Origin: Mycteria americana
Taxonomy: Eukaryota; Chordata; Aves; Ciconiiformes; Ciconiidae
NCBI RefSeq assembly: GCF_035582795.1
Contig: NC_134373.1
Coordinates: 18,250,001-18,314,000, forward strand
Length of the DNA stretch: 64,000 bases
Reading direction: 5' to 3'
Shown here in pieces: positions 11,047-50,460 of the stretch (its first letter is position 1; the number at the start of each line of letters is the position of its first letter). The notes under the pieces are model-generated. The model was given only the letters and a program-made list of their open reading frames with translations. It ran no database searches and was not told the DNA's origin. Made by a program: the position numbers and the translations under genes.

Positions 11047-11505
11047 AGGTCCGGACGCGCCGGCTTCGCCCCGGGGCCGGCCGCAGCTGCCACCGCCGGA
11101 CCAGGCCACAGCCCCCGCACCGGGCCCGCCACCACCGCGCCCGGCCCGCTCCCGCCTCCCACGGCGGCACCGCCGCGCCCCGCCACCCACCCCGGCACCC
11201 GGCCGCGCCGCGCAGCCCCCCGCGGGGCCCGGCGCCGCCGAGCTCCCGCTCCGCCGCGCGGCGCGACCCGACCCGCTGCTCCCCAGCACGGCCCGTCCCG
11301 CCGCTCCGGGCCCGGGCCCGATCCCGAGCCGCTGGCCCCCGCGCCCCGCCCGTGCGCGCCCCCGGCGCCGCCGCTCAGCGCCCACCTCCTCGCCGGGATC
11401 CGCGGCGCATCCCCGCTGCGGCCCGGGCGGCTGCGCCCCGCCGCTCCCCGCGCCCGCCCGCCGCAGCTCCCCGCCCGTCTGACGGAGGGAGGGAGGGGGC
11501 GGGCA

Positions 11506-11545
11506 GCCGCGCCGCGCCGCGCCGCGCCGCCGCCGCCGCCGCCGC
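11506..11545. repeat. GCCGC / CCG simple repeat
   Basis: Several GCCGC pentamers followed by a pure CCG trinucleotide run, inside the putative OSBPL6 CpG island. Such tracts in a 5' leader are often length-polymorphic. Confidence 0.85.
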
Positions 11546-11800
11546 AGCCCCGCCGCGCCGCCCCCCGCCCCCGCCCGCCGGCCAAGGTGCCCTCCGCGCC
11601 GGCCGGCACCCACCTGCGGCGGGCGGCCGCTCCGGCGGGGCCGCCCCGCGCCTGCCCCCGCCACGCCGGCGGCAGCGGGCCGGGCCCGGTGAGAGGCACC
11701 GCGGGGCTGGGCTGAGCGGAGGGGGCAGGCGGCGCCGGGATGCTCCTGCCGAGCGCGGCTGCGGCCCTCTGCGCGCAGCGGCGGGGAGGGGCGGCGCCGG

Positions 11801-11835
11801 GGCACGGCACGGCACGGCACGGCACGGCACGGCAC
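11801..11835. repeat. perfect (GGCAC)7 microsatellite
   Basis: Seven exact copies of the pentamer GGCAC, ending at CACCTCGCC. Perfection over 35 bases suggests recent expansion. It creates the repetitive CRAVP reading on the minus strand, which I do not regard as a protein. Confidence 0.95.
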
Positions 11836-29512: not shown

Positions 29513-29705
29513 TCAGTAAGTTCTCTGACGTTTGTTAGATTCTTCTGTAGGTGAGTCTGCCAACCTTACTTTAAGCCTGACACCGTTCACAATCTTGCCA
29601 TGTAACGCAGTTATGGCATCACTGGCACTTGCTCTGTCTGCAAATTTTGCATAGCCCACATTTTTTCCAGCCACAAGGTAAACTTTTATCAAGTGTCCAA
29701 AACGA
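29513..29705 (-). CDS. RBM45: RBM45 exon 9 (terminal)
   Basis: Encodes [12 protein letters not shown], the RNP1-like KNVGYAKF and the C-terminal ESNKRQRTY, then TGA at 29515-29513. It is preceded by an unusually long pyrimidine tract (29708-29766 as purines on the plus strand). Confidence 0.95.
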
Positions 29706-32700
29706 CTGGGGGGGAGAAGGGGGGGTGAAGAAAAAAAAAAAAAGGAAAAAAAAAAAAAAAAAAGAATTTACAGGTTTTGCTGCCATATAGATACCTATTA
29801 CCCAATCTGAAGTATATATGATTTGGTAGCTGCAAAAATTACATTCTCATATGTATGCTATAATTTTTTGTGCTGCCCTCTTCCAAAACTCCCAATTTTC
29901 ATATTCCCTTCTCTAGAATTCCAGGCAGGAATAGAAATAAAACCAAAAGTTCATAGGCAATGTTTTCTATGGAATATTACAATAGAACTGCAAGCACCAG
30001 TGATTTATCTCTTATTTAAAAGAATATGTAAAGCTAGTCAATACCATAGTCCCCAAACACTAAATGGCACTCAAAAAAACCCCACAAAAACAAAACAACA
30101 AAACCCCCAAACAAACCAAAAAGTACACACACACGCAGACCAGCAGGTAATTCAGAGGCTAAACTTGCATCTCACTTAAATGAACCTGCTCAGTTGTGAT
30201 TCACCTTTGAAAAGGTCTCACTGAAATGACTTAGAAAGCAAGCGCTAAAGCTTTACAGAAAAACCCAGATTTCCAAGTCCTCAGGATATTCCTAGACAGT
30301 TCCTTAAAAAACATTTTAAATAAATAAATAATAATTAAAAAAAAAAGTCTGCTTGCTTCATACTGAAGTTATACAAGTGTCAAGACCAGGGTGTATAGCC
30401 TTTTTCTTCTCTAGCACCTGATTAAGAAAATCCAGTACATCAAATAGGTACAGTTTTAAATTCCACACAAGTGCATACTGTTTCTTTTCCTCTCCTGGTG
30501 CTTTGAAAATATTTTGGCTTTCCAAAGATTTATTGCAAATGCCAGCTATTAGAAAAGGGAAATGTCTTTTTTTTCAAGAGTATACTAAAAATAAATACTA
30601 TAAAATACTATAAAAGAATAGCTGAACTATAGATTGTTTTAAAGATGGCAAAAATTGTCTCTCATGTCCTTGTTCCTCATAGGGACGTAGTGTGAAAGGA
30701 CGGTTGAAATACTGTCAATAAGATGCAAATCATCAAAATGTCTCAAGATATATCAGAAAAACAACTTCCTGTACTTACTCTCTTAAGTTACTGTGGAAAT
30801 GTATCCAAATACTTAAATTCCTAATAGAAATATGTACAAGAAAATGCCAAATAAATCAGGCTATAAGAACCAGAAGTACCACATTTTTTGGTTAAAAAAT
30901 GTTAAGAGACTAGACATTTTACTACAGATTATGTTAATCAATAATAAAGTTGCTGTACTGATGACATTGCATCTATGCTTCAAGGTGAATTCCACTACAC
31001 TCTTTTTTCAAAAAGCAACTGTTACCTATTGATCACTTACTACTTATTGATCACTGTGCACTGTCTTTTCTGGAAAGAGTTTTCATGATGACTATCGTTT
31101 TTCATTTTCAACATTTATTTTAAATACTTCATGGTTATTTTTTTGGTTAGAGAACACTTATTTGTAAATGGAGTCTTACCAGAACACATCCTCCAATACA
31201 TTTACAGGTAAAGGATGGGGATGAAAAAGTATGAAAAGCCTTTCCTTCACAGAAGTGTCAGGTGGAACTTTTTTTTTGTGTGGTGGAAGTATGGCATCTG
31301 TTTGGGGCTGAAGTAACTGTGAGCCAGAAGTTCCTCCAAATGCCTGCTGAAACAGGGGAAAAAAATGCAAGTATAAATTAACCAATGGGGGCGAAAAAAT
31401 AAGTTTACCTTATTTACATTTTTTGTTCCTATCACAGGACATAAACAGGCTTTACCAGTTCTCATCTTAATTAATTTACTTTGGTTATTTCATTAAATTG
31501 GACAATAAATCCAAGTAAGGTCAGACACCTTTGCAGGGAATAAAAATGTACAAACCAACCAGAGGTACATCTTAAAAATGTAGTATCCAAAACACTTACA
31601 GAAGGAAGTGAGCAGTGTTCTTTACTGACATATCTGAAGTTTCTTACAACAATTCAGAAGAATATTAATAGTATCCATTATATTAACTTACAGGAGGCGT
31701 CCTATACTGCTGAACAATTGCGTTGTTATTCCGCAACACTGATGACACATGTGCTGTTACCAGCTGTGTTGCCATTTTTCTGATGAGGCTGCAAGCAGAA
31801 GTGATAATAAACTAGTTTAAAGAAAGTTCTAAGTTACAGTAATCTTAAATTCAGCAAGAGAAAATAAGTTTTAATGCACATCTGAAAGTATCTCTGGAAA
31901 TCTGTAAATTCAGGTAAATAACGAAAATCAAGTCAGGCTTTCGTGACACTCTGGACATGATCTGGAAGTAGGCATGCTAGCTGCAACTCACTGATAACAC
32001 TCATACATTTCTACACAGAGATACAAAACTCTTCTTTGCTTTTTTTTAAATACTCTAGGAGAAAAAAAAATTTAAAATTAAGTCTATAGAGCCCACTACA
32101 TTTTGTGAAACGTGCCTAAAAGGCAGAAGGGACAGAAAATGTCACCTGTTTCAATAACAGGCACAGAGATTCAATTCAGAACTCAGAATATTATCACAGA
32201 AAGTTTACCTCCAGCTCTCATTTTGCAGTAATTTTTCTTTGTTCTATTGTGAAATAAGAAAAAGCAGTTGCACTTTTTGCATAGATTCACAGCCTGCGTT
32301 GTAGGACCATGAAATAGTAGGAATTATTGAAGAATGAAATAAATTGTTTGCAAGAAGGGTGGTTGCAATTAATTTTTTTTTTTTTTTAGTTTAGATCAGG
32401 CATGCACTTCTGAAGCGAATCCCCCCATTGTCCCTCCTTATTGTCCTTGTTCATACCACAGAACAGGTTTGACATGAACTAGATTCCTTTAGGATGAAAC
32501 TCAGCCAAAATATTCAGTGCAGGAGTGTACCTAAGCCGCTCCAACTTGTAATGGGCATTCAAATCACAGGAACGGATTAGAGATGGTCAAAGTAAAACCT
32601 GACGATCCCCATACAGTGGGGATATCAGATCCTCAGCACCCAACAGTTTTACTCTACATATGTGCTTCACAAGGCTGCTATTTGCAGTACTGCAAACACA

Positions 32701-35700
32701 ACCAAGAGATCAAACAGATAAATCTGTTTTTAATACAAAAACCTCATCAAAAAGACATTCCAGCCTTGTTACATATTACAGAGACATTTACAAAGATTCT
32801 TGCCAAATCCAAGATTTTCCAATGTATCTTAAGAATATATATTTTAATCTTTTCTTTATCAAAGACTAGTAAGTTTCAAAAGGCTTATTCTAAACCATTC
32901 AAAAAAACCCACACCCAACACACTTAAATTTCACAAAATACTATCTACAAGTATGAAACAAGATCACAGTGACATTGCTGTTACTTCTTATGTTAAAAAT
33001 ATTTTTATTTATTTTAAATTTTGCTCTCCAGAACACAACTTAAAACCTTCTATCTCTATGTATTGGTACTTACTCTGAGCTATCACTCCCATCTTCGAGG
33101 AAAATGACAGTTAATCGATTTCCAGGAGGATACTCAAAACCGTGTAATTTATACTTGGCATATATAGCTGACGCAGCAGTACTGTACTGAATCACAGCGT
33201 ACCCTACAAATACAGTGCACACAGTTTCAGTATGATATGGGTAAATCCTAAGAACAAACTACACTCCTATAAAGCTATATGATTAAACTGCACATTACTC
33301 ATGGATAATATAAAATTCTTAAGTCTTTTTACCACACATTATGTTACTTAATAGCAACATCAGTAGTATTTGTGAAGAAAACTTCAGTGGAATTAACTAG
33401 TGACTGATCAGCTATATTTATGCTAACTTGAAAAGCTGGTAATAAAGCAACACAAGTGAAAACATGTCTTCTTCTCTAACCCTGAATTAGAAACAAACAC
33501 ATATACAGTTTCATTTTAAAATGTAGTTAGCCCATCAACAGTGAATCTCAAGTACTGTAAAGTTACATTTTAACTCTCTGTACCATTTCTATTTCAAGCT
33601 TCTTGGAGAAGAGACCTCTTCCACATTTTTCTCAGCAACAGCAAAACAAGAAGACTGAAACCAAAATGACCCTTCCAATACGAAACATGATTTGTTTTGG
33701 AATAATTTAATCCAGTTTACTCATGTCAGTTTCTACACACAGACACACCACCACCACCACCCTCATTTCAAGATGAAAACTCAAAAGATCTTTTTAGAGA
33801 AGATTTAAACTAGATGTCTAATAATTTTTGAAACTTTTTCTCCGTTTATTCTGCCCAAAACTATTAACTTAATTTGACCAAAAAACACTTCTCATGGTTT
33901 TGATTCTGTCCTTCTTGAAATTCTATTATCTGAAAATAAAGGTATTTAAGGCTATCTGTAAACAGGGGTTCAAACAAAACTGAATTCTTGGGTTCATGCA
34001 TCAGTGATAGCAGCAACCATTGATACATAAAACATTAATTCTTTCCAACAAGTGTACTGTATTTTGCAATACAATGAATTGCAGTACAATTAAAAGGTAT
34101 CCCCTTCATAGAAAGAAGAAGAAGAAAAAAAAAATCTTTTTGTACTTTTACTTACCACTATTGGTATGAGGATCTCGCTGAACATCACAATATTCCAGTC
34201 CTGGGACTAGGTCAAAGAGGGCGAACAGCTGCTCTTGGATAAAGGGAAGCCGCGATACCACTGACAGACGTTTGGAGACTGACTCTTGAATTCTGCTCTC
34301 ATTTTTTTCAAAACTACAAAACTCTGGCTGCCCACCTCAAGAATCAACATAAAAATAAATAAATCGAGTCGTCACACTAGCATGCCTTCATTTCATACAT
34401 ATTTTTCATTGAACTTTTAAAAGTAATCTAAGTCAATTATATACTAAAGGTAACACATTTATTTCACCAATGCAGGTCACAAAATAATCGACCAACTAGA
34501 GCAAAGCAAGCCATAAAAATATAGAAACAAAATGCCTGGCTTGTTTCTAACTCCAACATCCAATCTACTATTGAAGTGTTGACCTATGCCTCTGTTAGCT
34601 TCCCTTCTTCCAAACTGCATTCTTACCTTGTGACCATGCTCAAGGCTAGAAATCGTTTTTCGTATAAAAAGCTGTGACTTACAAAACGGAAGTGTATTTC
34701 CTCTTGGTTCTTGCCTCGTGTTATTATTATAATAATCGTGTTCAAAAGACTCAGATGACTTATTTTTCGGTTCAGCCAAAATGGCCCTGTAGCCTGAAAG
34801 AAACAACCACACATAAAGCAACACCTCAGCATACCTGAATTATCTGACCAGATCTGCATTCTCCAAGTACTGTATTTAGAAACACACTATTCAGAAAACC
34901 CAGTAAGTGCTGGCTTTAGGAAAATAACTAATCTATAACTCTTGAAGTCTGCCATAATAATTGTGTGAAAGTTAACTTCCACATAGAACTACTCCTAGTT
35001 AGCACAAGTTAAGCACAATAGAGCCTACTTGCTGTGAGGGTGACTGAACACTTGCCCAGAGAGGTTGCAGAGTCTCCATTCTTGGAGATATTGAAAAGCC
35101 GTCTGGACACGGTCCTGGGCAACCACAGTGCCCAGGTGACCCTGCTTGAGCAGAGAGGTTGGGCAAGATGACCTCCAGAGGTCCCTTCCAACTTCAACCA
35201 TTCTGTTGATACTCAGCAGGATTCAGAGACACTCCAGAGGCAGTTACCTGAACTTCCATGCTATAACAGCAGTTTATGTATGTTTTGCACTGATCTAGGT
35301 TTTGCTTTTATGAAAGAAATAGGTATTACTCTCAGGCTATCCAACTAATTTCATTTTAACTTCACAGCAAAAAGGAAATAAAATTTAACTGCTATGTAAT
35401 CTCAGACTCATATTCCTATGCAAGAATTGTCACAAATATAATTTTTGTAGAACCACTTATGATAGATATGATGTAGATCCACCATGTATATTACTGGATA
35501 AAAAAGAAAAAAAAAACAAACCTCACACAAGAACAACAAAAAAACAACCACACCCACACACCAAGTTGTTTCATATTTGTGATTAAGCGAACATTGAACA
35601 GGAGGTTGGACTGGAAGGCTCCTGTTAGGTTTGCCCAAAAGCCTTTCTTCTCCTGGATGAGCAAGCCCAGTTCCCTCCACCTCTCCTCATAAGTCATGTG

Positions 35701-38619
35701 CTTCAGCCCCTGATCACCTTGGTGGCCTTCCACCAGACTCACTCAAATTCATTAACACCTTTTCGGTACTAGAGCATAAATGACAAATGGTTGGTCATAA
35801 AGCACACGAAGTCTTTCATTCTGTAACAGATTAATCATTACATTAAATGAAAACAAACAGGAAACACACACCCCACACCCCCCCAACTTCAATTAGGATG
35901 AATTTGTTCTTAAATAAATGTAATCACAACAGAATCCCTACAGATTATCAAATAAATTTTTATATATACATTCATTTTATATCAAATATATTTGATTAAA
36001 AATGCATATTCCCAGGGATACATTAAAATGAGGTTTTCCTGTGTATGAAGCCCTATATTACAGGCCAATAATAGTGCATGAAAGAAAACTCTGTATCCAT
36101 TTCCAAACTCTTTTCACTGATCTTACTTGCAGTTTGGTCCTGCAAGAATGTAATCAGGTGACTGTTCTCAATGAATGTTAATAATACTATTTTTTATTTG
36201 CAATAGAACTTTGTCTCAAGATGTGTTTACTTCATAAATAATTTACCTGCAAACAAAACTAAAAATTAAAGGTACATTAATGGGATACACACTCATTGTG
36301 AAAAACTTGAGAGAATTCAGTCAGATTCTTACTTCGATCACACTCTTCAATTGCTCGGGCAGCTTGCGATGGTTTTAAATACCTCACATAGCCCAAACCT
36401 TTACTTTCTCCAGTAGTCTTGTTTTTAATAATGCTGCAATATTCAATGTCTCCATACATCTAGAACAATTAAAAAGCATATTAATTTACAATAATTGAAA
36501 ATGCATTCAAGTTCCATGCATTAAGCCCTTCTGATAAATTAAGACAAAGGCAATTTAAAATAACTATTAACAGTGAATCAGTACCTTGAACTTCTCTCGC
36601 AGATCTTCCTCTGTATAGGATTTTGGTATCATAACAAAGATTCGTGTAAGCTCCTCATCTTCAACATCTCGGTGGCTTCCAGAAGCTCTTGACTGTGCAA
36701 TGAATACCTAATGAAATAATTAGATAGACATTAACTACTGGACAAAGGGTCTTAACCACATATTAACAAGTAAGAAAAAGAAGTTTGTTTTAACAAGTCT
36801 TTGTATTTGTCTTTCACATAAGCTAGCTTTCCTAATATGGAAAAAAATACCATCTCTGATCATAGCTGCATCTGTGACAAAAGACCTGCAAATATAATAC
36901 ACCCCAAGTGGTTTCCCAAACAGGACAGAAGCCAGCAGTTCTCACTGGGGATAATGAAGAATGGTCAGAAATATCAAAGCCTGGTTCAGCAGCACTGCCA
37001 ATGTTACAGGTGGTATGTGAGGTAGCAAAAAATGCATTACTGCAACAGGTCTAGTATAGCAGTAGTAACAAAAAATAAGCAAGCAAACAAACAAACAAAA
37101 AAGCCTAGCAGCTTATTAAAACCTTGCTACTGCAGTTCACTGCTCAGTGGGGCTGAAGTCTGCAAGTCTAGTGCTCTATGAAGGATCATAACTTCTCACA
37201 TCTGTAACTGCTAAAATCCTTTTTAATTACTGAAATAAATTTCATTTCAGAAGTGCATCCCAGAAGACAACCAGGCAAAAAAACCCACAAAAAATAAACA
37301 AACTCACCCAAAACAATCAAATAAGAAAAATACAAACAACCTTCAAAGTAAGCCTCTTATGCAAAAGTAGCAACAGATTTCACACAGCTCTTAAGTTATT
37401 CTTCTAATAGTCATGCAGGGGAGTAAGGAATACAACTCTGATCTTCTGGCTCCTAATGACAAGTTCTTCAGAAAATATTTTACTGACTCAATTGCTTTTT
37501 CAAATGAAACACGTGAAATCTTCTTTCACTGTTCAAAGTCATTCATATCTTCTCGGTACTTGGGGAATATGAAAACAATTCAAGAGGTTGAAAGCTGCCA
37601 GCAAGTTCCATAGATTTAAAAAACCCCATAACTCTTTTGAAAGAACTGTGCGTAAGATACAAAACCAATATAAAACATACTTGCAAAGACAGTTCTACTT
37701 ATCCACGTTGATCTTGCTTACAACACTTAAAATATACTTAGAATATTTCAGAGATTCCCTCAAGGTTTTAAAAAAACAAACAAACAAAAAAAAAAACAAC
37801 AAAAAAACCTAAGCTAGTTTCCAGGTACTGCATTTTCCCCAGGCCTGTTGCAGCTTATGCCACGCGTGGGAACTTCTGGCAAGGGTGGGACCCACTGTAG
37901 CTCCTCCTGAAGAGCACCACCAAGCCCGCAAGCCCCGCAGCCCGAAACCGCCCCGGGTTTGACCCAAAAGGGTGACAACATCAGCACCAGTAGGCGTGGA
38001 GAGAAGGCCACGGGAGCGGGTTTGACGCTCTCCATGGCGGCTCGCTGCCTGCCGCCAAGCGAGGCGGCCAGCTTCGCTGCGGGTGTTCCAGGGCTGCTCC
38101 CGGCGGGCCTCCGCCACCGGCCGTCCCCGCAGCCCGCCCCCCGCTCAGGGGCTTCCCGTTGCCCCCACATAGGCCAACACTACCTTCAAGCGGCAAGCTC
38201 GGGGCGCAGCGGCCGAGGCCTGCCGCCCTCCGCGGCCGCCATGCTGGGAAGGGAGCGGGGGACACCCCGCCGGGCCCCGCTCGCTCTTCCCCGACCCCGC
38301 TCCCCGGCAGGAAGGAGGCGGCGCGGCCCGGCGGCGGTACCTTAATGGGCTTGGTGTCGGGGACCAGGCTGCGGCCGTGCATCTCCTCCATGGCCCGGCA
38401 GGCCTGCGAGCTGCGGGCGAACTTGATGAAGGCGATGCCGCGGGACTCGTTGGTGCGCTTGTCCCGCAGGAGCCAGATGTTCTGGATGTCCCCGAAGGGG
38501 GCGAAGCGCTCCCGGATCAGCGCCTCCCCGGTGTCCTTGCCCAGCACCACGAAGACGCGGCTGTTGGGCGGCTCGTCCAGGCACTCGGCCGAGAGGCGGA
38601 AGCCGCTGCCTTCCTCCAT
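29513..38619 (-). CDS. RBM45: RBM45, RNA-binding motif protein 45 (complete)
   Basis: Complete nine-exon coding sequence, joined as 38619-38341, 36707-36585, 36459-36333, 34793-34683, 34335-34156, 33203-33074, 31788-31692, 31346-31180, 29705-29513. All introns are GT-AG, all phases agree, and the total is 1407 nt or 468 aa (human protein about 475). It has four RRMs: RRM1 from about residue 21 (RNP1 GIAFIKFA, 61-68), RRM2 from 115 (RNP1 KGLGYVRY, 154-161), RRM3 from about 236 and RRM4 from 385 (RNP1-like VGYAKFAD, 421-428). The C-terminal SNKRQRTY tail is the usual nuclear-localisation end. The family is a nuclear, self-associating RNA-binding protein found in neural tissue and in inclusions of motor-neuron disease (known of the family). 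I start at 38619 because MEEGSGFRL... aligns with the human start; an in-frame ATG 99 bases upstream is also possible. Confidence 0.96.
29708..29766. repeat. purine/pyrimidine tract at exon 9 acceptor
   Basis: The plus strand reads two seven-G runs in a GA context followed by two long A runs, with one T (29726) in 59 bases. On the transcribed RBM45 strand this is a nearly pure pyrimidine tract ending in CCCCCCCAG at the exon 9 acceptor. Confidence 0.9.
31180..31346 (-). CDS. RBM45: RBM45 exon 8
   Basis: Encodes [10 protein letters not shown], the basic HKKKVPPD linker, and the start of RRM4 with RNP2 RLFILF. The acceptor is a tandem TTTCAGCAG, so the first Gln may be included or skipped. Donor TTCTG|GTAAGA. 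Confidence 0.93.
31692..31788 (-). CDS. RBM45: RBM45 exon 7
   Basis: Encodes the linker [18 protein letters not shown] through YRTPP, the region before RRM4 that is least similar to mammals. Acceptor GCAG|CCTCAT, donor CCT|GTAAGT, ending at phase 0. Confidence 0.92.
33074..33203 (-). CDS. RBM45: RBM45 exon 6
   Basis: Encodes [19 protein letters not shown] and the rest of RRM3, then FLEDGSDSS. Acceptor GTAG|GGTACG, donor AGA|GTAAGT. Enters at phase 1 and leaves at phase 2, in agreement with its neighbours. Confidence 0.94.
33746..33763. repeat. CAC/CCA trinucleotide run
   Basis: About six ACC units within RBM45 intron 5. A simple microsatellite with no evident role. Confidence 0.75.
34156..34335 (-). 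CDS. RBM45: RBM45 exon 5
   Basis: Encodes [11 protein letters not shown]... through [12 protein letters not shown], the RNP2 region of RRM3, to DPHTNS. The acceptor TTGAG|GTGGGC has a poor pyrimidine tract but gives the only frame matching the human protein. Donor GTG|GTAAGT. Confidence 0.92.
34683..34793 (-). CDS. RBM45: RBM45 exon 4
   Basis: Encodes the end of RRM2, [11 protein letters not shown], and part of the linker with an Asn-rich [10 protein letters not shown] stretch. Acceptor CAG|GCTACA, donor TTTT|GTAAGT. The linker is slightly shorter than in human, which accounts for much of the length difference between the proteins. Confidence 0.93.
35030..35207 (+). repeat. CR1 LINE 3' fragment in RBM45 intron 3
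   Basis: The plus strand carries the CR1 terminal reading and 3' UTR: gagggtgactga, gagaggttgcagagtctcc, tggacacggtcctgggcaac, ttgagcagagaggttgg and cagaggtcccttccaac, ending near aaccattctg. Part of the coding end is deleted. It is antisense to RBM45. Confidence 0.9.
35600..35757 (-). repeat. CR1 LINE fragment, RT C-terminal region
   Basis: The minus strand reads [16 protein letters not shown], the conserved block that follows the CR1 reverse transcriptase (usually GLEHLSYEERLRELGL). The upstream and downstream parts are decayed. It lies about 400 bases from an oppositely oriented CR1 in the same RBM45 intron. Confidence 0.85.
36333..36459 (-). CDS. RBM45: RBM45 exon 3
   Basis: Begins MYGDIEYCS and ends after CDR plus one base (donor GAA|GTAAGA). 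It carries the RNP1 of RRM2. Intron 2 before it is only 125 bases; intron 3 after it is about 1.5 kb and contains two CR1 fragments. Confidence 0.95.
36585..36707 (-). CDS. RBM45: RBM45 exon 2
   Basis: Forty-one codons (residues 94-134), VFIAQSRAS through REKFK, with an acceptor at TTAG|GTATTC and a donor at AAG|GTACTG. It starts RRM2 with RNP2 RIFVMIP. Phase 0 at both ends. Confidence 0.95.
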
Positions 38620-42010: not shown

Positions 42011-42586
42011 AATCCCCCTTATCATGAACATGTCCTGACAGGCACTGGAGGAGGAGTTGAAGTCGACAGTTCTGGAGACATTCTAGGTAGCACTGCGGCC
42101 CACAGGGAAATCCTGAGGTGCTGCTGTGTTTTAGATCGGCCTTCTAGACAAAAGTACATTGACCTTTACCCTTACCATCAAAGTAGCTCTAGAAGAGCAG
42201 TCAAGGAACTTAAAGCTACCTTAACCTCCAAAAGATAAGAATAACAACTTCTGTAATTCTGCATCTCTCAGAGATGCAGCAAAAAAACATGGTGGTTTTT
42301 CCTAATTGTAAACTGGATAACTTAAAAAAATTTAATTCATGACCATCGCAACCAGATTGTGTTAAGAAATCATGCGGCTTAACAGAGTCTTACCCAAACT
42401 TATCTTTACAATGAAGACTGGATGAAATTTTCATTACTTTGAGACATATTATTTTTATTACCATGCAAGACAGAAATATTTTATAAAACTGTAGAAGGAG
42501 ATGAAAAATGTGACCAACAACAGTGAACTTTTCTGTAATATTGTTCAAATTTCCTTCTTTTTTTTAGATTTTTTACGTAGATCAAA

Positions 42587-44292
42587 ATGGGTGATGTTGA
42601 AAAAGGCAAGAAGATCTTTATTCAGAAATGTTCTCAGTGCCACCCAGTTGAACAAGATGGAAAGCACAAGACAGGACCAATTCTTTGAGGTTTATTTCGC
42701 CACAGAATAAGACAAGCTGCAGGGTTTTCTTACTCAGATGCAAACAAGAACAAAGCTAAAACTAACAGGTGATATGGATGAGGTGCAGTGCTGGAGGGGA
42801 CATATATGAAAAAAACCTTTTTACCTTTTTCTTTAGAGGTACAACAGAAAGCCTTACTCACAAGGAGTTGCTCTCACAACTGTCTACTTTGCATTACTGC
42901 AGATGAATCTGAACTATAGTTTCAGAAACAAAAATCCTCAGTCCCTATATTAAAAAGAAATTTTACCAATATCCAGCACACCAGGTCGGAAGGTATATAG
43001 CTTTCCCAGAACTTTGTAGTATCAATGGGCAGATTTTAATTTCTGTTTCTTAAGAGTGCTTTTATATTTTGTTTTGCTGGTCACTACCCTCTACTGGCAT
43101 CGTGGTGTGCTGCAGTTGTTTTGCTCACAACGCTTGACTAAATACCATCAGCTACTAGTAAGCTATGATTTGTCTTGTGTTTTTCATACAGACAGTCTTG
43201 AAAAGCAGTGGAACATCTAAAAATGGAAAATAATTGTGTGCAGGTTTCATTGTTTTTATTTACATTATTTGAATATAAATTATATTATTTGAATCAAGCT
43301 ATTAATTACAAATACAGCCCTGTTTTTTTTCCTGGTTACTACAGTGCTTTAGAATTGGCTGACTTTTTTATTTTCCTGTAATTTCTAGGAAATATTTTGT
43401 GACGTTCACTTTATACTGGGACTTCCTTCATCCAAAACATTGTCAGCATATATTAACTATTTTTTCTCATTAAAAATTTAGTGAACAAATCATACAGATG
43501 TTAGTGCAAGTTTTTAAAAGAAAGCCAAGAAAGTGATATCTCAATCCACTTTAGACAATGGGAAGAGTCAGCTCTGGAGGACAGAAGAGAAACTTGAACA
43601 TGTCGTTATAGGTATTTCAGTAGTCTTCAGTACAACAGTAGGCTTCTCTTGACAGAAACAGGTTTTAGCAGGGTTGGAAGGGAACACTAACGGTTTTTCA
43701 ACTTCTGTCAAGAAATTCCAGGAAGTGGCCATTGACAACCCTTTTTCTAATGCCCTTCAATGGAGCGCAGCTTCGATGAATTTCACGTCAATCTGTAGAT
43801 GCTCATTTTCAACAACTGTATGAAATTAAAGTTGGATCTTCTGGATACTGGAATTACAAAGATACTTACATAGTTCAAAAGTAGTAAGTAGTTGTATGTG
43901 AAATGGTGCAAAGAACTGCAACTCTCCATGATGCAAAAAGGATTTGTATTTGACTTATTAAAGTGACACAAAGAAAAGGTATACCTTGTGCATTTTATAT
44001 TATGTATCATTTATGCTCACATTCCTCTGGGATTCTAGGTGCATTATGTTCAGGAGCATCATACCTTTGACTTGAGACCGTTGATACTTTCATAAATATA
44101 TGATGTTGGGCCAGCCTTGTATTTTACTGTGTTTTTTGTTTTTCAGGAGTTGTCTGGAGTGAGGATACACTGGTGGAGTCTTTGGAAAACCCTAAGAAAT
44201 ACATTCCTGGTACAAAAATTATTTTTGCTGGAATTAAAAAGCAGAATGAAAGAGCTTATCTTATTGCATACTTGAAAAAAGCAGCTTCATGA
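42587..44292 (+). pseudogene. CYCT: CYCT, broken testis-type cytochrome c gene
   Basis: Two coding exons, 42587-42755 and 44147-44292, split by an intron at the ancestral cytochrome c position, so this is the original gene and not a processed copy. Exon 1 starts [10 protein letters not shown] and keeps the haem-attachment CSQCH. Exon 2 gives [26 protein letters not shown] and a normal stop. VVWSE and the lost Trp33 mark the testis rather than the somatic type. Defects: Trp33 codon is TGA (42686-42688); conserved sites in GLFRHRIRQ are changed; the donor after 42755 is CT instead of GT; Tyr67 is Ser and the axial haem ligand Met80 is Ile (44218-44220). An acceptor-like pyrimidine tract precedes the start (AG at 42566-42567 or 42579-42580). 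The position between RBM45 and PDE11A matches mouse Cyct. It cannot make a working electron carrier as sequenced. Confidence 0.93.
42594..42710 (+). other. PDE11A3-type frame overprinted on CYCT exon 1
   Basis: An ATG seven bases after the cytochrome start opens the +1 frame: [18 protein letters not shown], then LNKMEST... to a TAA at 42708-42710 (38 aa). The first 19 residues differ at three places from the human PDE11A3 N-terminus as I recall it ([19 protein letters not shown]). From this ATG to the ancestral exon end at 42755 is exactly 54 codons, the length of the human PDE11A3-specific head, and the exon then ends at phase 0, as needed to join the second PDE11A exon (first exon also phase 0). 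In this bird the TAA and the lost donor make the frame unusable. See the findings for the argument. Confidence 0.8.
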
Positions 44293-49269: not shown

Positions 49270-50073
49270 ATGGCGGCCGCCGCCGACGCCGGCCTCGACG
49301 TGGCGGCGGTGGAAAGTTTCCTGGAGAGGCACCCGGAGCTGGTGGAGAAGTGGCTGAAGAGGAAGAACTCGCTCCCTAAGGCGCCCGCCGCCCCCGCCGC
49401 CGGCCCGTCGGAGGAGCGCCGGAGCAGCGGCGGCCCCGGCGGCGGCTGGGGCAGCGCGGGCGGCCCCGGCGGCCCCGGCCCCGGCGGCGGGGGGCTGCAG
49501 CGGCGAGCCTCCCAGAAGGAGCTGCGGAAGAGCTTCGCCCGCTCCAAGGCCATCCACGTCAACCTCACCTACGACGAGCACGTGCACGCCCGGGCGCAGG
49601 AGCCGCTGAGCAGCGTGCGGCGGCGGGCCCTGCTGCGGAAGGCCAGCTCCTTGCCCCCCACCACCGCCCACATCCTCAGCGCCCTGCTGGAGTCCCGCGT
49701 CAGCCTGCCCCAGTACCCCCCCACCGCCCTGGACTACAAGCGCTACCTCAAGGAGCACAACGAGCGCCAGTTCTTCCTGGAGCTGGTCAAGGACATCTCC
49801 AACGACCTGGACCTCACCAGCCTCAGCTACAAGATCCTCATCTTCGTCTGCCTCATGGTGGACGCCGACCGCGGCTCCCTCTTCCTCGTGGAGGGGGCCG
49901 CCGCCGGCAAGAAGAGCCTGGTCTCCAAGTTCTTCGACGTGCACGCCGGCACCCCGCTGCTGCCCTGCGGCTCCACCGAGAACAGCAACGAGGTGCAGGT
50001 GCCCTGGGGCAAGGGCATCATCGGCTACGTGGCGGAGCACGGAGAGACGGTCAACATCCCCGACGCCTATCAG
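49270..50073 (+). CDS. PDE11A: PDE11A coding exon 1 (A4-type N-terminus)
   Basis: 268 codons from a strong Kozak start (CACCATGG) to NIPDAYQ, donor CAG|GTAGGA, phase 0. PDE11A hydrolyses both cAMP and cGMP; the long isoform carries two GAF domains before the catalytic domain. Seen here: ESFLERHPELVEKWL near the N-terminus, a Gly/Pro-rich spacer (about 53-75) shorter than in human, the basic block RRASQKELRKSFARSK with the two kinase-site serines (81 and 88, matching human Ser117 and Ser124), RRRALLRKASSLPP, and the first part of GAF-A (about 180-268). The rest of the gene (second GAF-A exon starting DRRFN in mammals, GAF-B, catalytic HD domain) is not in the window, so this is a partial gene. 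Residue 202 is Gly in DADRGSLFLVEG where I expect Cys. Confidence 0.96.
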
Positions 50074-50189
50074 GTAGGAGCCGGGCAGACTCCCGGCGCT
50101 CCCCCGACCCCCGGCTCCCCCCCCGGACCGCGGCGGCGGAGGCGCCTGTCGAGACGCCCCGCCGCCCCCCGGCCTTGCCTCTCCCCGGA

Positions 50190-50460
50190 GCGTCCCTCCC
50201 CGCCGCCCTGCCGCCCCCCGGGGCGTCCCTCCCCGCCGCCCTGCCTCCCCCCGGGTGTCCCTCCCCGCCGCCCTGCCTGCCCCCGGGGCATCCCTCCCCG
50301 CCGCCCTGCCTCCCCCGGGGCATCCCTCCCCGCCGCCCTGCCTCCCGCCGGGTGTCCCTCCCCGCCGCCCTGCCTGCCCCCGGGGCATCCCTCCCCGCCG
50401 CCCTGCCTCCCCCCGGGTGTCCCTCCCCGCCGCCCTGCCGCCCCCCGGGGCGTCCCTGCC
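50190..50460. repeat. GC-rich minisatellite, eight ~32-bp units
   Basis: Eight copies of a unit with the core TCCCTCCCCGCCGCCCTGCC followed by a variable CCCCCGG tail, plus a truncated ninth. It starts about 115 bases after the PDE11A exon 1 donor. The C-rich strand is the transcribed sense, so the opposite strand is G-rich with quadruplex potential. Confidence 0.92.

Follow-up and report, generated by a model that had tools for sequence, protein, structure and literature searches.

A testis cytochrome c pseudogene beside PDE11A in Mycteria americana, very probably orthologous to the mammalian exon that doubles as the start of PDE11A3

Architecture of the locus

The analysed window, a stretch of 64,000 nucleotides from the bird Mycteria americana, comprises RBM45, a relic of the testis cytochrome c gene (CYCT) and the first coding exon of PDE11A4, in that order. 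RBM45 extends over positions 29516..38610 of the - strand, as located exon by exon by tblastn with a provisional human RBM45 sequence. Coding exon 1 of the CYCT relic (42587..42755, + strand) matches mouse CYCT (2aiu) with 71% protein identity (tblastn, E 7e-24) and carries cytochrome c as far as NKNK and one base into the following codon; coding exon 2 (44147..44292, + strand; tblastn, 76% identity, E 3e-19) begins behind a CAG acceptor, stays open until a TGA and is separated from coding exon 1 by 1391 bases. An AG acceptor, read from the sequence, precedes coding exon 1 at 42566..42567 (+ strand) and suggests that the relic had a 5' untranslated intron like that of the somatic-type gene CYCS, where CTAG stands just upstream of the ATG. 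The PDE11A4 first coding exon (49270..50073, + strand) comprises 268 codons with no stop, ends in phase 0 and shares 93% identity with residues 112-304 of a provisional human PDE11A4 sequence (E 1e-110), its part before human residue 112 being shorter, at 75 codons. The intron directly behind this exon carries a GC-rich tandem array of nine copies of a unit of about 32 bases (50165-50457). Further PDE11A exons lie beyond the window on the + strand (C9:18317442 to 18436451).

The relic is thus situated upstream of PDE11A and in the same orientation, with RBM45 on its other side, a placement in which splicing of the cytochrome c exon into PDE11A is possible. We take this to be also the place of CYCT in mammals, in part on the basis of Pierron et al. 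2011 (PMC3196546). A search of the whole genome (1.35 billion bases, 279 contigs) gave four matches from nine scored candidates, namely the two exons described here and the two exons of CYCS on C2. Intron position and phase are alike in CYCS and the CYCT relic. Cytochrome c coding exons with the intron of the family, lying between RBM45 and PDE11A, identify the locus as orthologous to mammalian CYCT, a pseudogene in its original place that has retained its intron.

Two other origins were considered and ruled out: a retrocopy of CYCS, which the retained intron and the CYCT position contradict, and a chance resemblance, since the agreement extends to both exons, to the phase of the intron and to the neighbouring genes. 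A 24-base pattern that occurs once in the window was drawn from the window itself and adds nothing against chance. A mammalian or primate origin of the window is ruled out: the genome measures 1.35 Gb, the residues Ile3, Ser15, Asn33 and Glu44 of its CYCS are bird-like, and among PDB chains of single length its alpha-A globin comes closest to 3a59/3fs4, an ostrich hemoglobin subunit alpha-A, behind six chains of 283-285 residues, at least three of which are double globins.

The cytochrome c frame begins with its own MG, one base ahead of the +1 frame in phase, retains CSQCH and is interrupted at residue 33 by a TGA stop one base away from TGG, the codon for Trp; this residue is Trp in 2aiu and Asn in the CYCS of the bird, which carries Ile3, Ser15, Asn33 and Glu44. 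Exon 2 has Ile in place of the heme ligand Met80 and Ser in place of Tyr67. Measured against an intact frame with the heme-binding residues Cys14, Cys17, His18 and Met80, the stop at residue 33 and the exchange of Met80 exclude a functional cytochrome c, and the cytochrome c frame of bird CYCT is dead.

Between 38.0 and 43.0 kb, CpG-rich sequence is found by RBM45 (38.0-39.0 kb) and, less markedly, at 41.5-42.0 kb. Both strands were scanned from 37.5 to 50.3 kb for promoter motifs; five CRE half-sites were found there, and neither an NRF-1 site nor a full CRE occurs in that interval, a result that says nothing firm on the CYCT promoter. Elsewhere in the window, at 11125-11835, several short GC-rich tandem arrays perhaps belong to a different gene, as its CpG-rich promoter or first exon.

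The second reading frame and the PDE11A3 head

The +1 frame of CYCT exon 1 (42594..42755, + strand; 162 bases, 54 codons) was reported by the sequence-only reading to open with ATG, to begin with a given string of 18 residues and to reach the end of the ancestral exon after 54 codons. All three points stand, the first 18 codons reading as claimed, and over the whole length 30/54 residues are identical to a provisional human PDE11A3 head. That reading left two lesions unmentioned: a TAA at codon 39 (42708-42710) and the loss of the splice donor at 42756..42757 (+ strand), where CT takes the place of GT (AACAAAG/CTAAAAC in the relic, AATAAAG/GTAAACT in bird CYCS, the slash marking the exon end). 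It had also pointed to the shared length of 54 codons; the length is present but carries no independent evidence, since any cytochrome c exon of this kind measures as much when counted from the inner ATG.

The phases of the neighbouring exons bear out its further claim of a phase-0 fit to the second PDE11A exon, as PDE11A4 exon 1 ends in GAC GCC TAT CAG, followed by the intron sequence GTAGGA, and exon 2 starts behind AAG with GAT CGC CGC, both in phase 0. In the relic the phases therefore fit, but the frame is closed by the TAA before the exon end and the donor reads CT, so that a full PDE11A3 head is impossible from the bird locus, and the likeness of its +1 frame to human PDE11A3 is attributed to common descent of the exon. 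A donor-like site (CAG/GTGATA) 13 bases beyond the old exon end, with 42768 as the last exon base, might be invoked for a PDE11A3-like protein that the bird still makes from the CYCT exon; since the TAA at codon 39 precedes the site, which would moreover leave phase 1 instead of 0, we regard such a product as having next to no chance of existing.

The human PDE11A3 head, in a provisional sequence of 54 residues, was compared with mouse CYCT by back-translation, each adjacent pair of residues restricting the shifted codon between them. In this provisional head, 48 of the 53 shifted codons compared permit the mouse CYCT residue, Trp33 included, and five do not fit, whereas 5000 shuffled heads gave a mean of 11 fits and a best value of 24. 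The protein lengths agree with this structure: the bird PDE11A4 exon 1 ends in DAYQ, aligned to residue 304 of the provisional human sequence, and with human lengths that we assume to be 934 and 684 residues, the latter for PDE11A3, the sum 54 + (934 - 304) = 54 + 630 equals 684. A review describes PDE11A3 as a protein of 78 kDa with an incomplete GAF-A domain. The back-translation, the phases and the gene order uphold the proposal that CYCT exon 1, read in the second frame, encodes the PDE11A3 head, which Pierron et al. 2011 also state (PMC3196546).

A head of this kind need not have been an improbable find, as simulations of synonymous codings (20000 random codings per setting, two codon-usage settings) indicate. 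For mouse CYCT exon 1 the +1 frame was open in 75-76% of the codings and open with an ATG in 37-43%; for the bird CYCT-like protein the values were 56-57% and 28-33%; for bird CYCS the frame was open in 17-20% and never with an ATG. The +2 frame was open in about 1% or less. The actual CYCS gene of the bird differs from the relic, its +1 frame starting with ATA and holding a stop, a TGA across Leu32-Asn33 that cannot form with Trp at position 33. These rates imply that testis cytochrome c offers a ready second frame, and an open +1 frame with an ATG is not improbable.

Taken together, these data make it very probable that the locus holds an orthologous CYCT pseudogene, lying between RBM45 and PDE11A on the strand of PDE11A, whose mammalian counterpart doubles as the start of PDE11A3, a product ruled out for the bird. 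In mammals, CYCT exon 1 would be spliced to PDE11A exon 2, with the PDE11A4 first exon skipped, and reading from an inner ATG, seven bases downstream of the cytochrome c start codon, would yield PDE11A3; that product is excluded in the bird by the second-frame stop together with the loss of the donor. Exon identity, gene order, phases and lesions are shown here, with the DNA of the CYCT locus coming from one bird and the human head being provisional, whereas the human splice form, its expression in testis and the use of the promoter of CYCT are inferred or follow background knowledge or the 2011 paper. The sequence-only reading had known of no description of this origin of PDE11A3; the shared exon had in fact been in print since 2011, as a remark in a discussion (PMC3196546). 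The present analysis adds a bird in which neither frame is intact and a weak, testable hint on the age of the double use.

Age of the double use

Birds and humans separated about 320 million years (My) ago. Each third position of a cytochrome c codon falls in the middle of a codon of the second frame. A substitution that leaves cytochrome c unchanged will thus usually change the second protein, and third bases can record a constraint on the second frame. Between human and bird, 40/54 third bases match in CYCT and 30/54 in CYCS (Fisher one-sided p 0.035, paired one-sided p 0.026), where the human CYCT bases are taken from the provisional PDE11A3 head, the human CYCS DNA is likewise provisional and a single bird was read. 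For scale, six CYCT-CYCS pairs match at 23 to 31 of 54 positions, human and mouse CYCS at 42, and mouse and bird CYCS at 27. Shuffles within codon classes set the chance level at 22.3 for CYCT and 23.3 for CYCS, the observed value being reached in 0/20000 and 2.6% of the shuffles, respectively.

This excess, seen between orthologues of equal age, speaks for the possibility that the double use predates the bird-mammal split, with both frames selected in the amniote ancestor and both later lost in the bird. So does the perfect agreement of the first 18 codons (CYCT 18/18, CYCS 12/18), although that stretch was picked out because it matches and the difference over codons 19-54 is small (CYCT 22/36, CYCS 18/36). 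The latter codons, with third bases hardly better conserved than in CYCS, fit a double use confined to mammals, in which the bird +1 frame would be a mere shadow of cytochrome c coding. That account agrees further with a bird that has neither an intact second frame nor the donor, and with the simulations, in which 28-43% of the synonymous codings for a cytochrome c of the testis type have an ATG and an open +1 frame.

A simple decay model, calibrated on the rate of CYCS, predicts 29.2 matches when no constraint acts on the second frame (P(>=40) 0.022). Constraint on the human line since 100 My raises the expectation to 31.1 (P(>=40) 0.052) and since 180 My to 32.9 (P(>=40) 0.10), so that the conservation over 54 codons is somewhat above what an origin within mammals would predict; if the human line has been constrained since 320 My, 37.1 matches are expected (P(>=40) 0.32), in favour of the older date. 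Yet the fit is good when the human line alone is constrained, and constraint on both lines that ended 100 or 50 My ago would lead one to expect 47.3 or 50.5 matches (P(<=40) 0.063 and 0.002), more than are found. The model thus weakly favours an old origin and does not settle the bird side; a lower mutation rate at CYCT would give the same picture, and the provisional human sequences and the single bird also count against reading an ancestral double use from these figures. On balance we lean towards the double use as a mammalian acquisition, and consider its presence in the amniote ancestor unlikely.

Were the ancestral double use true, the exon would rank among the oldest overprinted exons in vertebrates, and the bird would have lost both proteins. 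It is uncommon in vertebrates for a single exon to encode two unrelated proteins in different frames, and in this case the order in which the frames arose is known. The bird, with both frames broken, provides an outside point on whether the loss of one frame frees the other to decay.

Comparison with known systems

The mammalian locus described by Pierron et al. 2011, where Pde11a3 uses the testis cytochrome c first exon in a different reading frame (PMC3196546), shares with the bird locus the same exon, the same neighbour gene and the same second frame. The same paper reports that chicken still has both cytochrome c isoforms (PMC3196546). Cyct is listed among the human unitary pseudogenes, on the chromosome 2 minus strand, in PMC2864566. 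The cytochrome c frame is dead in primates as it is in the bird, but the lesions differ: according to PMC3196546, the primate stop arose at an Arg codon (CGA to TGA), a change that is silent for Pde11a3, whereas the stop of the bird lies at residue 33, Trp in mouse CYCT, and its second frame and donor are also broken. As the stops are different, the primate and bird losses of testis cytochrome c look independent.
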